Source: Polytrichum commune
Taxonomy: Eukaryota; Streptophyta; Polytrichopsida; Polytrichales; Polytrichaceae
Assembly: GCA_950295325.1 (NCBI GenBank)
Contig: OX485807.1
Coordinates: 19,069,666-19,133,665, forward strand
Length of the DNA stretch: 64,000 bases
Direction of reading: 5' to 3'
Of this stretch, positions 50,988 through 57,707 are shown in pieces (position 1 is the first letter of the stretch; each line of letters starts with the position of its first letter). The position numbers and the translations under genes are program-made. The notes beneath the pieces were generated by a model that was not told where the DNA came from, searched no databases, and was given only the letters and a program-made list of their open reading frames with translations.

Positions 50988-52235
50988 AGAGACATTGAAC
51001 CCTCAAAATAATATGCATTGTGGAATTGATTATCTTACGTTGGTTTGATAGTGGAATTAGTTCTAATGATCTTGAATTCGTTTAATCCAAGTCACTTGAG
51101 ATGAATCGACCACGAACCTATAAGGGAGTCATTTTTAATATATGTTTAATGCCGGATGGATGAGAGGTGCACTCGTGTGCAATAATTTCCTCTCTTCCTG
51201 GAAATCTACTTAAGTTCCATCATCATCCTGCAAACGATGCACTCCATAAACATACGATTTAGTGTGCCATTAGAATTGACGTGCCTTGTTTGAAATAGAG
51301 TGTTGCCCACGACTTGTCTTATAGCAACAAGTGTATGATACCACCTTCTCCAATTGTCACCTTGTGATTGTAAGATGATTTGCATGGATCGATGATGAAT
51401 AGTGTGAGCTACACCAAAGAATATGTGTAGGTAGTGTAGTTTTATAGGACCCCATTACAATGTATATACGATTTAGTGTGAAACACACTCTTCATCATTG
51501 ACCCATGACAAAGGTCACCGTTTAGACTAATTATCGTGGGCGACGTTATCATTAGAGTCTAGGGTTGATTCAACGCCTTGAACTTCATTGTTTATTCATG
51601 TGATGACCAAAACTACATCCTAAATTGCTTTGAAACCATCTTCTCTCAATTATTGACAACAACTCGACAATGATTATGGTAATCTAATTTAAAAATTTCT
51701 TAGACGCTTAAAAGGAGGATGAGCATAGGTGTAGTTATCACATGGGAAGGTATGGTGGTAAGGGGATGCTTCAACTTGGAACACTCTCAACTCAGATAGA
51801 AAGATGAATCCAACAAAGTGATCCCTATATATATTATTGATGTCCAAAATGATAATAGTTTGATCATGAGAGCCTAGAATCGGTTTCAGACACATGTATA
51901 AGAAAAAAAGAAAAAAATTCAATGTGGGTTACTCCGACTTGCGATGTCTATTCGCCACCCCATGCCACGTCTGGGTGGATACGGGGGTGGGGGTGATTTA
52001 TGGCCTATTTGTAATAGGTGCAATGTTGTTAGAGCAATGTTCAACACAGTAGTAGTTTTTTAATATAGGGATTCCGAAGCTTGTTTCTTCTCTATTTTTC
52101 TTTTGTGGAGGATTATGTGTGTTAGGTATTTGATAACAAATTTTCATTAGTTTATAGAAAAGTTATTGTGGAGTTTTGAGGTCTGAAGGCTTTTGATGGG
52201 TGGTGTGTGTATGTAATGTGTATGGAGCCTCTTAT
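50988..52235. other. Gene-free stretch before the hAT element
   Basis: No gene recognised. A segment at about 51697-51770 (gacgcttaaaaggaggatga) is related, in direct orientation, to one at about 57560-57640 (aacgcttaaaaggacggcga) on the other side of the hAT transposon, but neither touches its ends. Confidence 0.5.
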
Positions 52236-52243
52236 GCATGTAG

Positions 52244-52257
52244 CAGAGCCCTACATT
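52244..52257 (+). repeat. Left terminal inverted repeat of the hAT element
   Basis: CAGAGCCCTACATT, preceded directly by the target duplication gcatgtag. The matching right end is at 57277-57290. Confidence 0.95.
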
Positions 52258-52261
52258 GGGT

Positions 52262-52450
52262 GCCCATACCCATGCCCATGCCCATCCATGCCCATGGGTT
52301 TTGGGTGGGCATGTGTGCGATATTATTGTTCATGGGTGGGCATGGGTGGGCATGGGTTCGATATTATAATGGGTGGGCATGGGTTTGATATTATTGTTCA
52401 TGGGTGAGCATGGGCTTGATATTATTGTTCATGGGTGAGCATGGGCTAAA
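52262..52450. repeat. Subterminal 31-bp repeat array of the hAT element
   Basis: Tandem copies of catgggtgagcatgggcttg plus atattattgtt, preceded by a cluster of cccatgcccatg motifs in the opposite sense. The motif catgggtgggcatggg also occurs at the other end of the element (57206-57225). Confidence 0.9.
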
Positions 52451-52895
52451 GCAAAGCATATTGGAAGGGGTCATTGAATGAGCTCTCATTCAATGCTTTC
52501 GAGGGTAAGAGCACCGAATCACCTTCACCAAGTAAGGTGAGTCCATCCTTCAGTGTGTCTTCTTCTTGTTCTCCTCCTCCTCCTTCTTGAGTGTGTCCCT
52601 GGGCTCCCAAGAATCCTTGGTCTCTTTTTTGTCACTTTCTTGTGCTTATGCTTTTCCCACCCTACCTTAAACCCAGTCCTGCCAAGAGGATTCCAAAACT
52701 TAAGAAAGAGAGGTATGAGGTAGAGCTTACTCTGCAACCCGGACCAGAAATTTTTCCTGCAGTCACAGAAGATATCTTATCCTGGTCTTGACAGATTTCT
52801 AGTATGGAGCCATGAAAGAATTTTTGTGCAGTGCATTTTGAGCTTCCCTGTCACTGAGCTTCTGGCCTTAACCTTATTTTCCTGGAATTGACTAG

Positions 52896-53890
52896 GTGGG
52901 GGCACCCGAAATCGGACAAGAGCAAGCATTATTGTCTGTTGATGACCTCGCTGATCAAGTTGCCGAAATTCTCGATTACTTTGGGTGAGTGAATATATTC
53001 CAAGTTCACTTGCTGCCATTCCTCGAACATCCATACACTCATCTTTTTGCCCCGATGAATGATGCAATTTGAGGCGTAGCATCTTTTTTTCTTGACCACC
53101 AGAATTTGAACTGTCAACTGAACGCCCCCTTTTTTTTTTGTGTGTAGATTGGATGAAGTGATTGGTCTCGGTGTTACAGCCGGCGCGTACATTCTAAACC
53201 TCTTTGCGGTAAACAGCCTCCCTAACCCGTCTCATCTTTTTAGGTAGTTCTCACCGAGCACATGATGTGGGATAAGAGAAGCTTGGATTAAGCTGATGGA
53301 TGGCTGTTTTCTTCTTGTTTGCAGTTGAAATACTGGGATCGAGCTTTAGGACTCATCCTGGTGTCGCCTCTTTGCCAAACACCGTCGTGGACGGAATGGC
53401 TCTATAATAAGGCCATGATCAACCTTCTCTACTTCTGCGGCATGACTGGGTTTGTGAAGGAGACACTTCTACAGCGTTACTTCAGTCCGGTGAGTTGCTT
53501 GCAAATTTCCTGTCTTCATCTGGAATTTGTTGTGAGATCTTGTTGTCATCCAATTGCCACAAGCATCAAAATCTGTGGAGAAGTTTGGGAATGATGTTTC
53601 TCTACTGTTCATCTTGGCAGGGAAGTACGAGCTGCCTGTCTTGAAGGGACAGATGTTTTGATGACATATCGAAGGGTGAGTATATCTGGATCGCTAAACA
53701 CTTCATATGCTACTACCAACCTCTTCTTTTGTGCATTTTGTTGATCAATTCTTTAAAGAAATCTGTGCAAGTGTAGTTTCTGACCTTGAGGTTTGGTGTG
53801 GGTAGTGATGGAGAGTCTTGATGACAGACAAAGTAGGAATGTGATGCGCTTTTTGCAAGCAATTCACCAGCGGCAAGATATTAGACTTGC
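52896..53890 (+). pseudogene. Captured NDRG/NDL (N-myc downstream-regulated-like) exons
   Basis: Three exons (52896-52984, 53148-53208, 53325-53489), separated by GT-AG introns, join in phase to about 105 codons: SVDDLADQVAEILDYFG, then LDEVIGLGVTAGAYILNLFA, then [19 protein letters not shown] and [14 protein letters not shown]. This is the central alpha/beta-hydrolase-like part of plant NDL proteins, including the G-x-T-A-G-A-Y turn where active hydrolases have their nucleophile. A fourth exon (53621-53675) reads EVRAACLEG only in a frame one base off after splicing, and a fifth (from 53806) reads SLDDRQSRNVMRFLQAI. The conserved start and the C-terminal third were not found. The introns are kept, so the DNA was captured genomically, not through mRNA. 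The fragment sits between the left end and the transposase of the hAT element, on the same strand. Confidence 0.88.
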
Positions 53891-55070
53891 AAACACTACG
53901 ATCTCAACCGGTTACAACCAAATCTCTCCCCGATCACTGCTCCAAATAAGGTCTTGAATCTGTATCTTACTTCGCTCATTTGGAGTTGGACCTCAACCTC
54001 ATTGACCTATACAGGTATGCAATCCCTCCCCATCCTACCTCTTAATTCTTGCACTAGAATGCAGATGAGAGAGGTAAGATGACGGCCTCGTCAAGAACCT
54101 GGAGTTCTGAGATTCTGAAGTTATGGTGTTTTGAAGAATTCTGAAGTTGCCTAACTCGATCATCTAAATTGACGTACATGGTTTTCTACCTGAGTTAACA
54201 GAGATTTTATCACTTTCCTCCGATACACCCTTGCTCATGGCTCCACTGATCCTCAAAGTTCAATACTTTTCGAGTTAAGATGATTCTTGCAGTACCTTGA
54301 ATTTTGCTGAAATTTCCACTATTAATTTTTCTTGTAGCTTGAAAATGCATGTGCCAGAGCCAGCCTTGCGGACACTTGCACTTTTCAAAGTGTTAGCCCC
54401 TGACTTCAGACGAAGTAGCGACTGCTACATATATTGGTCTAAGGTTCTCTTTCTTTGTTGGATGCAGTGGTGTAGGGGTGTTGTGATCGCCACATTAGAG
54501 CACACGGTGAATTGAGTCTACCTTCATCAATCTTGTCTCCTCCAAATCTCGCAGATCGGTACTAGGTATGTACATCTACTCATCAATCAGCATGTAATTT
54601 GAACTCAATGAGGAAAGAAATCATCATAGAATGTTAATGACTAAGCCGTTTGTTCAATGTTGATGACTAGGTCACATGTTCAATGGCGGATACATACATG
54701 CTTGGCAATTTATGATGAGAATCTGAGACTACTCCAGTCTTTATACAAATTCTTGAAGATTCTTTGAACTCGCTTTTTGAGTGAATTGATATGTCCACGA
54801 TTAACTTACATTGGAAACTGGATAATAAGTTAGCTGTGCATTAATAAGTTAATAGCTTTAATAAGTTAGCTGTGCATTCTGCGCTCAATTCATCAGATAC
54901 TTGGCCATGAGTGTGTCAGTAGAAATGGCGGTCCGTCTTCGCATAAAAAGACCTGTTTGACTCATCATGTGCACTGTGGGAAAAATTTATTTGAACAGGA
55001 ATTAGGGCAAATCTCATCGAGGCAAAACACAAATTTAGTGCCCACAAGTGAGTGACTAGTGCTTATTGAG
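53891..55070. other. Unassigned interior of the hAT element
   Basis: Between the NDL-like exons and the transposase ATG I recognise no coding exon. A short frame around 54340-54410 (reading LENACARASLADTCTF) is preceded by a cttgtag acceptor-like site and could be another captured piece. The region just before 55071 presumably holds the transposase promoter. Confidence 0.4.
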
Positions 55071-57152
55071 ATGGTGGCATCTAGCTCTAGTTCGCTAAAT
55101 GCACAAGTGATCGAGAAGGAACTAAAGAAGACATCGCCGAATGATGCCGATTGTGTATTTTCATTGCGCAAGAACCATGCTGGTCTGAACTTTGCTCTTT
55201 GGAAAATTTTTGGCATCGTGCAGCAACATGGTAAGGACTGCGAGTACGCAGCGTGCTTCAGCTGCAAGAAAGTATACACGTTCAAGAAAACCACGGGTAC
55301 CAGCACCATGAGTGATCATAAGTGTCCTAAGGCTGAAAGATCGGGGAGTGGAGCAATGAACGAATTTGCAACAAAGGGCGTCCCCACCACACATGATAAG
55401 AAGACGATGACGCTTGCGGCTGCCAACTTCTGCGTGATTGACCTCCAACCATTTGAATCGATAGCCGGACAGGGTTTGAAAGGGCTTGTTCAAACAGCTT
55501 TGAACATCGGCGTTGCAAGCAATAAGCGACTCATGGTTGATGACCTATTGTGTCAACCAATTACCGCCAGACGCAATATAGAGACTCGCGCGGCGGCGGG
55601 GCGCGCTATAGTGGCAAAGCGTCTTCAAGAACACATTGCTACTAACGTATCCATGGCAAGCACCCTTGATCTCTGGACGGACAATATCAAGAAGGTAGCT
55701 TATATATCTGTCACGGCGCATTACATCGATGAAGAGTTTGCTCTGTTTGATCGAACATTGCATGTGAAGCCTGTTCGCGATGAGAGCCACACCGCAATTA
55801 TGGTTTTGGACGAGTTCAAGGAAGTTCTGGACATCTTTGGTATCAAGGATTTGGTGTTCGATAAAATCACTGTTGTGGCGGATTGTGGATCGAACATCGT
55901 CGCCGAAGATGGCATTTCAAGCGAGTTTGATTTGTTAGGGTGCATTGATCATAAAATCGCGAATTGTCTGACCTACGTATTCAACAAGACTACGAAACAG
56001 GTCGATGGTAAAAAGAGCAAGCCTTTTTACCGATACCTTGATGAGCCCAACATGGCGGCCCTATACGCTCTCATTGACGCCTGTAAGAGTTTGGTCACAT
56101 ACTTAAAAAAGTCAAATCTTCAATCAAAGTTGTCGAAGACGCTGAAACAAGAGAATGCAACCAGATGGAACTCGCTATACCATTGCCTGCTTAGTGTTTT
56201 TGAAATGCTAATTGAGGTGATCGATCTACTAAAGCAAAAGGATGCATTGCAGAAAGTTGCCTCAATCTCAGAGACATGTTTGAAACACTTAATTGACTTG
56301 TTGGCACCATTTCAGAAGGCAACTCTGGATCTCGAACAATTCAAAGAGCCGACACTGCACAAGGTTGTATTTTGGCGATTTCAACTGTTGAAGCATCTAA
56401 AACCTGTTATGAATGATGTGATTAATGACGATGGTACCGTCAGGACGAGCAAAGACTCCCCTTCGATCATAGCTTGTAAGTGCCTCTTGACACCACTAGT
56501 GCAAGAGAAGATGGAGCTCGACGTGCTCCATGTCGTAGCAACACTTCTGGATCCCGTTATGAAGAACCATATGCGCAAGATGGAGGTCCCTGACGCTTTA
56601 GTTACTAAGGCGAAAGCAAAACTAAGGGAGCTTATGCGCTCGATTGGCACAGGGGAGGTTTTAACTAATTTGGATCACGAGAAAGATGATGCACCGGCCC
56701 CACCACAAAAGAAGCGTCGTAATGATGACACGACGTCTATGTACGATGAGTTTGAGAATGAATTAGAAGAGATTCGTGACAATGGGGCTGAGATCGTAGT
56801 TGTTAGCAACTTCGACACACGTATTGAGCTTGAGTTCAGTATGTATGAGACATACAAGGTCACTGATCTCGAAAAAAATGAGATCATTGCAGCGGTGAGC
56901 TTAGCATTGCCAATGAATCGGGATACCATTGCTAAATTCAGTATTCTCTTGTGGTGGAAGCTGAAAGGAGCCCCCACATTCCCCATCATGTCGCGCGTGG
57001 CGCGTTCGGTTTTGTGCATCCCTGCATCCAACTCCAAATCGGAGTCAAACTTCTTGGATGCAGGGAATACGCTAACCAAGAAGCGCTCCGGGCTGAAGCC
57101 AGCGATAGTGAACGACCTTTTATTTGTCAGATCCAACCAAGACTTGGTGTAG
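55071..57152 (+). CDS. hAT transposase (BED finger, intact)
   Basis: A single uninterrupted exon of 693 residues plus TAG. I start at the ATG at 55071; the frame is open from 55059 but without an earlier ATG. Residues 62-85 carry a BED-like zinc finger (C62-x2-C65, H83-x-C85) after an aromatic lead of the FALWKIFGIV type. The RNase H-like core shows the three expected acidic positions: Asp200 in LDLWTDN, Asp271 in VVADCGSNI and Glu658 in SNSKSESNF. R365-W366 in ATRWNSLYHCL is the conserved RW motif of the family. The C-terminal dimerisation region is complete (FPIMSRVARSVLCIPAS, then TKKRSGLKPAIVNDLLFVRS). The enzyme would cut at the 14-bp ends of its own element. Predicted to be able to work; only expression is unproven. 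Confidence 0.95.
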   Translation: MVASSSSSLNAQVIEKELKKTSPNDADCVFSLRKNHAGLNFALWKIFGIVQQHGKDCEYAACFSCKKVYTFKKTTGTSTMSDHKCPKAERSGSGAMNEFATKGVPTTHDKKTMTLAAANFCVIDLQPFESIAGQGLKGLVQTALNIGVASNKRLMVDDLLCQPITARRNIETRAAAGRAIVAKRLQEHIATNVSMASTLDLWTDNIKKVAYISVTAHYIDEEFALFDRTLHVKPVRDESHTAIMVLDEFKEVLDIFGIKDLVFDKITVVADCGSNIVAEDGISSEFDLLGCIDHKIANCLTYVFNKTTKQVDGKKSKPFYRYLDEPNMAALYALIDACKSLVTYLKKSNLQSKLSKTLKQENATRWNSLYHCLLSVFEMLIEVIDLLKQKDALQKVASISETCLKHLIDLLAPFQKATLDLEQFKEPTLHKVVFWRFQLLKHLKPVMNDVINDDGTVRTSKDSPSIIACKCLLTPLVQEKMELDVLHVVATLLDPVMKNHMRKMEVPDALVTKAKAKLRELMRSIGTGEVLTNLDHEKDDAPAPPQKKRRNDDTTSMYDEFENELEEIRDNGAEIVVVSNFDTRIELEFSMYETYKVTDLEKNEIIAAVSLALPMNRDTIAKFSILLWWKLKGAPTFPIMSRVARSVLCIPASNSKSESNFLDAGNTLTKKRSGLKPAIVNDLLFVRSNQDLV

Positions 57153-57276
57153 GCAGGTAATACACATTACACAATTTTTGAATACATGGGCGCAATTTGA
57201 ATAGCATGGGTGGGCATGGGTGGGCATAGGTCGCTGCTGATGGACATGGTCTGGGTATGGGTGCAATTTAAAGGAA

Positions 57277-57290
57277 AATGTTGGGCTCTG
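57277..57290 (-). repeat. Right terminal inverted repeat of the hAT element
   Basis: Reverse complement CAGAGCCCAACATT, followed directly by the target duplication gcatgtag (57291-57298). Confidence 0.95.
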
Positions 57291-57298
57291 GCATGTAG

Positions 57299-57649
57299 TA
57301 ATGATGAAAAGTGGAAGAACTTTTCATTCCTATTGTGCTAGTATTGGTTAGAATAAGATGTATTTGTTGAGTTTGCAAGTTGTGGCCTCCTCTAGGAATA
57401 TGTTGTTGCAGTATGTAAATTCAAAGATTTGTCTGTAATCAACACCTTGAAAACTCATGGTTCATACAAGTGGAGTTCAAAAAGTGAAAGTTGAAATATT
57501 CTCCCAACTGCCAATAACACACAACAATATTCAAGGTAAATATATAAGACATTTTCTCAAACGCTTAAAAGGACGGCGAGTACCTATAGGTATAGTTACC
57601 GTTGGACAAGGCTAGGTATTGATGAAAGGATGTTACATAGCTAACAGGA
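57299..57649. other. Short gene-free flank of the hAT element
   Basis: No feature except the segment at 57560-57640 that is related to 51697-51770. Confidence 0.5.
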
Positions 57650-57707
57650 TTATCTATTGCAGTAACTTAGAGCAAGTGAACTTTTAAGCCTGGTTTCTGA
57701 AGATTGA

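Follow-up and report, generated by a model that had tools for sequence, protein, structure and literature searches.

A hAT transposon with an open transposase frame and captured NDL exons belongs to a moss element family that recurrently captures host-gene DNA

Results

A hAT transposon carrying a piece of a host NDL gene lies on contig C5 of Polytrichum commune. We analysed a 64,000-nucleotide stretch around it (C5:19069666-19133665, hereafter the window) together with the 407.8-Mb genome of 64 contigs; coordinates without a contig name are window positions. The element spans 5,047 bp (52244-57290). Its 14-bp terminal inverted repeats, CAGAGCCCTACATT on the left (52244-52257, plus strand) and CAGAGCCCAACATT on the right (57277-57290, minus strand), were identified by end comparison and motif scan and are complementary at 13 of 14 positions. 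Both ends abut an 8-bp target-site duplication, GCATGTAG (left copy 52236-52243, right copy 57291-57298), whose two copies match at 8 of 8 bp. Subterminal tandem repeats of TGCCCA / TGGGTGGGCATG... units follow the left end (52261-52445, plus strand). These units recur, in varying number, in all 11 aligned left ends and presumably form a putative transposase-binding region. Genome search and BLAST between copies delimit the element's own left part (52244-52713, plus strand), which is common to full and short copies. Then come the captured NDL segment (52715-53884), the element's own region between cargo and transposase (53881-55070, plus strand; 97% to C4:4485514-4486703) and the transposase frame (55071-57152). 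Part of the region between cargo and transposase (54003-54512) has an 82% match at C3:15009001-15009466.

Paralogous empty sites independently support these bounds. When the flanks were joined with one octamer deleted, 10 of 41 listed genome matches spanned the join, and two of the 41 were the window's own flanks. All four spanning repeats that were fetched continue over the join, one of them (L028) with a 3-base gap beside it. Since diverged paralogous repeats thus cross the joined flanks, the limits of the element do not depend on flank comparison alone, and they agree with the 14-bp ends and perfect duplication given in a preliminary description of this DNA. The insertion site is an old dispersed repeat (51844-52243 and 57299-57698), to which the join-spanning matches are 65-75% alike. 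A motif scan of the window found no exact match to the end motif besides the element's two ends; at up to two mismatches there were 4 matches, against 0.81 expected.

The element has an open hAT transposase frame on the plus strand, identified from the reading frame, Pfam, a structure-sequence match and residue alignment. Its 693 codons start at the ATG at 55071 and are free of stops, as first described. Pfam returned Dimer_Tnp_hAT (1.2e-17) and the Hermes DNA-binding domain (1.6e-5), with a zf-BED match below the cut-off (E 0.1). The C-terminal dimerisation domain occupies residues 616-689. The closest solved relative is the Hermes transposase (8edg, 5.1e-47), with which D200, D271, E658, a CxxH motif (291-294) and an RW pair (365-366) align. 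We take D200, D271 and E658 to correspond to the catalytic acidic residues of Hermes. With the 8-bp duplication, short inverted ends, dimerisation domain and D-D-E residues all present, the element is by its sequence a Hermes-like member of the hAT superfamily. The preliminary description called it apparently functional. The open frame and expected residues bear out part of that wording, but they are a necessary and insufficient sign of predicted activity; the term overstates them, and movement of the element would be an unsupported reading.

The window copy was the only full-length transposase without a stop among the 67 genome matches listed. That search scored 64 of 231 candidates, and several other searches scored 40 candidates each, so that counts from these searches are lower bounds. 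Two pairs of transposase copies, C4:50793900/50855449 and C4:54394752/54437884, have equal scores and opposite orientation and are inverted segmental or assembly duplications.

The middle of the element holds NDL DNA with its introns. The captured segment (52715-53884, plus strand) lies sense to the transposase and is 97% alike to C5:38509697-38510863, part of an NDL gene on the same contig, 19.4 Mb apart. That source gene (C5:38.51 Mb) is intact: a hand-made spliced model, which sets the exon numbers used here, encodes 349 aa and matches Pfam Ndr at 5.2e-100. The captured DNA comprises introns 3-7, exons 4-7, part of exon 8 and at most 5 bases of exon 3. Alignment to the source places exon 4 at 52896-52984, exon 5 at 53148-53208 and exon 7 at 53621-53675, all on the plus strand, as are exon 6 (53325-53489; Pfam Ndr, 8.7e-14) and the exon 8 part (53814-53884). 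Compared with the source, exon 7 starts with an additional G and is frameshifted; exon 8 is cut by the right junction, where it overlaps the element by the 4 bases TTAG. The splice joins proposed earlier, 52984 to 53148 and 53208 to 53325, are exact by this alignment. The internal splice sites are bordered by GT/AG, and exons 4-6 keep their frame through 105 codons. The base preceding the exon 8 acceptor is altered. The cargo has no start codon, and this and the exon 7 frameshift suggest that it specifies no NDL protein.

The NDL piece was taken from DNA and belongs to the element. Its retained introns imply capture at the DNA level, as the preliminary description held, and rule out capture from mRNA. 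NDL homology is confined to 52715-53884, stopping inside the element on both sides, where element homology adjoins it; the exons are therefore no part of a host gene extending beyond the element and its duplication (52236-57298), and that alternative is ruled out. No other NDL gene emerged as a nearer donor: apart from the window itself, a DNA search of the genome gave only C5:38.51 Mb (98%) and an 81-bp stretch (79%). The same search found the cargo in the window element alone, which leaves the earlier suggestion that the element could spread NDL fragments unsupported. An antisense-like role had also been proposed; the cargo is sense to the transposase, so its sequence suggests none. At the joins, cargo and element have 3-4 bp of letters in common: TTAG at the right join, and at the left ATG, with a stray T besides. 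Capture displaced about 857 bp of element DNA and brought in about 1.17 kb. The displaced segment survives whole in one sister copy (L015, 857 bp), as 817 bp in another (L005) and in interrupted form in a third (L003).

Host-gene capture by transposase-bearing elements recurs in this hAT family. Genome-wide there are 749 exact matches to the end motif. Among 100 places listed, 29 end-motif pairs less than 1 kb apart (counted by hand) mark short copies; long copies vary chiefly in the middle. An ethylene-receptor cargo occupies the middle of four transposase-bearing copies (L008, L009, L010 and L016) and of an inverted repeat of L016. It measures up to 1.27 kb, covers the HisKA exon in part and the exon after it, introns included, and matches C7:823174-824442 at 98%, within a gene that has ETR1_N, GAF, HisKA and receiver domains. 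Its joins overlap by about 2 bases. A second cargo, 1.79 kb long and including one complete exon of a CAS-like gene, sits in three further transposase-bearing copies (L007, L011 and L012). It derives from C1:49272753-49274546 (C1:49.27 Mb; 95-97%), a locus at which we detected no element ends or transposase. With two frames joined by hand, the source gene gave a rhodanese-domain structure match (3.6e-18) and a Pfam Rhodanese match below the cut-off (0.002); we take it to be chloroplast CAS. The cargo aligns with this source locus, L019, over nearly its entire length. L018 was ruled out as the source, having a 518-bp fragment only (L018:3383-3900, C3:7339382-7339899), which is 99% alike to L019.

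Two of these cargos moved after capture. Perfect 8-bp duplications with differing octamers flank three of the seven sister carriers (L007, L010 and L008+20). The movement follows from the two duplication-flanked ethylene-receptor elements and the several CAS copies. The preliminary description had named lack of the duplication in other copies as a refutation of its claim. Among 16 sequences, which include the window and the CAS-like source gene L019 and some loci that may not reach both ends, six have a perfect duplication, two have one mismatch (one of them in a C-run) and eight have none by the criteria applied.

The sister transposases have decayed. On the coordinates of the window transposase, 0 of 14 other copies has a complete open frame; 10 of the 14 are near full length (2062 or more of 2082 bases), and all 10 have at least one stop or frameshift. 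The least damaged, L010, has a single one-base deletion. Comparison of the four ethylene-receptor carriers (L008, L009, L010 and L016) found no stop or frameshift common to them; with lesions private within this set, descent from an element with a whole transposase is probable. Nor do the three CAS carriers (L007, L011 and L012) have a stop in common. Between the two transposase groups, 33 fixed differences are silent and 30 replacement, whereas without selection a simple transition bias predicts about 2.45 replacements for each silent change. This scarcity of replacements indicates that the enzyme was probably constrained on the connecting branch. The transposase tree is star-like within both groups, and the AU test does not reject a single origin for either cargo (p 0.26 for the CAS-like and 0.436 for the ethylene-receptor cargo). 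The end branch of the window transposase is the shortest of its group, at 0.018 versus 0.028-0.042.

The exons and introns of the NDL piece differ unequally from the source gene. Exons differ at 3 of 440 sites, all silent, and introns at 24 of 722, or 3.3%, once two boundary columns are dropped (P 0.004; 26 of 724 undropped, P 0.0015); there are 27 substitutions in all plus indels. Sister cargos have changed about equally in exon and non-coding DNA. Pooled counts, in which copies are non-independent, are 47/2052 in exon versus 55/2837 in intron for the ethylene-receptor cargo (four copies, replacements and stops included) and 11/738 in exon versus 89/4571 in non-coding DNA for the CAS-like cargo (three copies). 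The captured exons in sister elements thus look to evolve as neutral sequence. With the reference NDL gene as direct donor, a rough assumption predicts about 9 exon changes (P ~0.02) and a milder one about 7 (P 0.07). The simplest reading suggests that a recent capture drew on an allele or a lost paralogue that had earlier diverged from the reference gene under selection.

Discussion

We propose that this hAT family has a replaceable middle, captures host genes and descends from ancestors with a working transposase, a reading to which we assign a probability of roughly 0.8. The replaceable middle would be the stretch from the left subterminal repeats to the transposase gene. A break or gap in the window element would have been filled with about 1.17 kb copied from the host NDL gene, which took the place of about 0.86 kb of element DNA. 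The 3-4 common bases at the joins would have helped the filling, with ends and transposase left untouched. Like events would have produced sister lineages with ethylene-receptor or CAS-like gene pieces, which then jumped to several sites with both cargo and transposase gene and later decayed. We infer gap filling as the mechanism; in the published model, microhomology spans 1-36 bp, with a median of 2 (PMC8277862).

Why the middle is dispensable may lie in how the transposase is transcribed. A possible 5' splice donor, AAG/GTGAGT, lies in the left part (52537-52538, plus strand). The same letters stand in 6 of 11 aligned left ends; they are not in L006, L013 or the three ethylene-receptor copies of that alignment. 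A transcript starting in the left end and spliced to just before 55071 would make the middle an intron, free to change. A 5' intron or untranslated region would then account for a dispensable middle.

Several observations weigh against this reading of the family. Being single-copy, the window's NDL cargo may have stayed in place ever since it was captured. A one-base loss near codons 547-549 occurs in L007 and L012 but not in L011. It falls in one column of the alignment, though the adjacent letters differ between the two copies, so it may be one event or two; a single event would mean that a frameshifted CAS element moved in trans. The CAS carriers do not form one clade in the best tree, although the test does not reject such a clade. 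L014, though free of the ethylene-receptor cargo, is placed among its carriers. It also has a TAG at codon 401 in common with L008 and a TGA at codon 153 in common with L015, which sits in a different group. These stops are shared outside same-cargo sets, so recurrent mutation seems to occur. The window transposase has 8 replacement and 4 silent private changes, numbers with no power to reveal selection. The case for a working ancestral transposase is stronger in the ethylene-receptor lineage than in the CAS lineage.

For the window copy itself, the odds are even that the NDL piece entered a resident element by transposition-independent break repair and never moved as cargo. The cargo's presence in one element only and the position of its source gene on the same contig both fit such repair, and the animal survey explains most single-copy captures in this way (PMC8277862). 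The short end branch of the window transposase speaks on the other side, since it fits a young insertion, but it dates nothing. If break repair was responsible, the term gene-carrying mobile element fits the family and not the window copy.

A less probable but still serious alternative is that the window transposase is open through recency and now inactive, and that the cargo copies owed their movement to a few undecayed elements acting in trans. None of the 14 other copies compared keeps a complete open frame, and L007 and L012 may have a frameshift in common. Short copies are abundant, and their number likewise implies frequent movement in trans within the family. The intact window frame, the acidic residues that align with Hermes and the private lesions of the ethylene-receptor carriers speak against this alternative.

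Selection on the captured NDL exons, in an expressed chimeric or regulatory transcript, is improbable. Their silent-only changes beside the more diverged introns, set against the even change in sister cargos, are what such selection would leave. A donor that was another functional allele or a lost paralogue, already diverged, gives the same pattern. The cargo lacks a start codon, the base ahead of its exon 8 acceptor is altered, and its frameshift makes retained function less likely than a diverged donor. We dismiss an assembly artefact, in which NDL reads were misjoined into a hAT element: no support for it was found, the cargo differs from its source by substitutions and indels, both joins lie inside the element, and other cargo elements share the architecture.

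Carriage of host-gene DNA beside a transposase has a direct precedent. The closest known system is Hatvine-6 of grapevine, which has a common transposase and ends and a middle that is confined to one or a few copies and often matches host exons and introns (Benjak et al. 2008, PMC2528002). Its table gives 35 copies with more than 90% of the transposase, 17 of them with potentially functional frames. Hatvine-6 belongs to another plant, and its ends are 13 bp and its duplication 9 bp, versus 14 and 8 here. The likeness is one of architecture; source genes, joins and decay are worked out here for some copies. Such capture was initially judged far less usual than capture by non-autonomous elements, a view that neither Hatvine-6 nor the other transposase-bearing copies here sustain.

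Other gene-capturing transposons share parts of this organization, as far as the available portions of their descriptions go. Maize Ds elements of the Ac/Ds system are likewise hAT elements with 8-bp duplications and exon-intron filler, and captured gene filler in Ds is termed a rare hAT feature. Those gene-fragment elements are nonautonomous, whereas a complete transposase frame adjoins the cargo here (Du et al. 2011, PMC3260210). Pack-hAT elements, among the Pack-TYPEs, also hold host coding DNA between hAT ends. Pack-TYPEs are described as non-autonomous, unlike the window element with its open 693-aa transposase (PMC8903248). Animal Pack-TIRs include 208 hAT cases with microhomology joins and gap filling, in likeness to the window element; only four cases are multicopy, whereas two cargo types here each occur in several transposase-bearing copies (PMC8277862). 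Kaonashi and ULP-carrying MULEs are plant transposons that likewise combine their own genes with a transduplicated host domain, but they are of the Mutator superfamily and carry one conserved domain, in contrast to the different fragments per copy seen here (PMC13317346). Our searches of open-licence papers turned up no report of this hAT family or its cargos.

This family offers a worked case of transposase-bearing hAT copies with identified host-gene fragments whose source, joins and decay are readable. It can help test whether capture requires transposase loss, and how capture occurs. At least one published survey method sets such elements aside when seeking gene capture: the Pack-TYPE pipeline calls any transposase-matching element autonomous, and an element like the window's is thereby classed outside the Pack-TYPEs (PMC8903248). 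A bolder combined proposal would be that an intron-like 5' cargo bay lets autonomous elements of this family repeatedly swap in host genes, signalling genes included, and carry them through bursts, and that the NDL piece comes from a diverged allele or a relative's genome and so records introgression or transfer. We consider that combination unlikely.

Other variable middles in the family include repeats. The 1.4-kb insert of L003 and the middle of L006 and L013 match repeats, and gene capture is unsupported for them. Low-copy relatives of the L003 insert lie at C4:42950494-42951825 and C4:36208739-36211472, and a tandem array of ~359-bp units at C5:51466884-51470985 is akin to the L006/L013 middle. 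In L014, positions 364-465 and 1202-2085 are 93-94% alike to DNA upstream of a GH17-like frame (C1:61318063-61319267), the match being interrupted by a multicopy repeat of ~740 bp. The L014 middle is a possible further capture.

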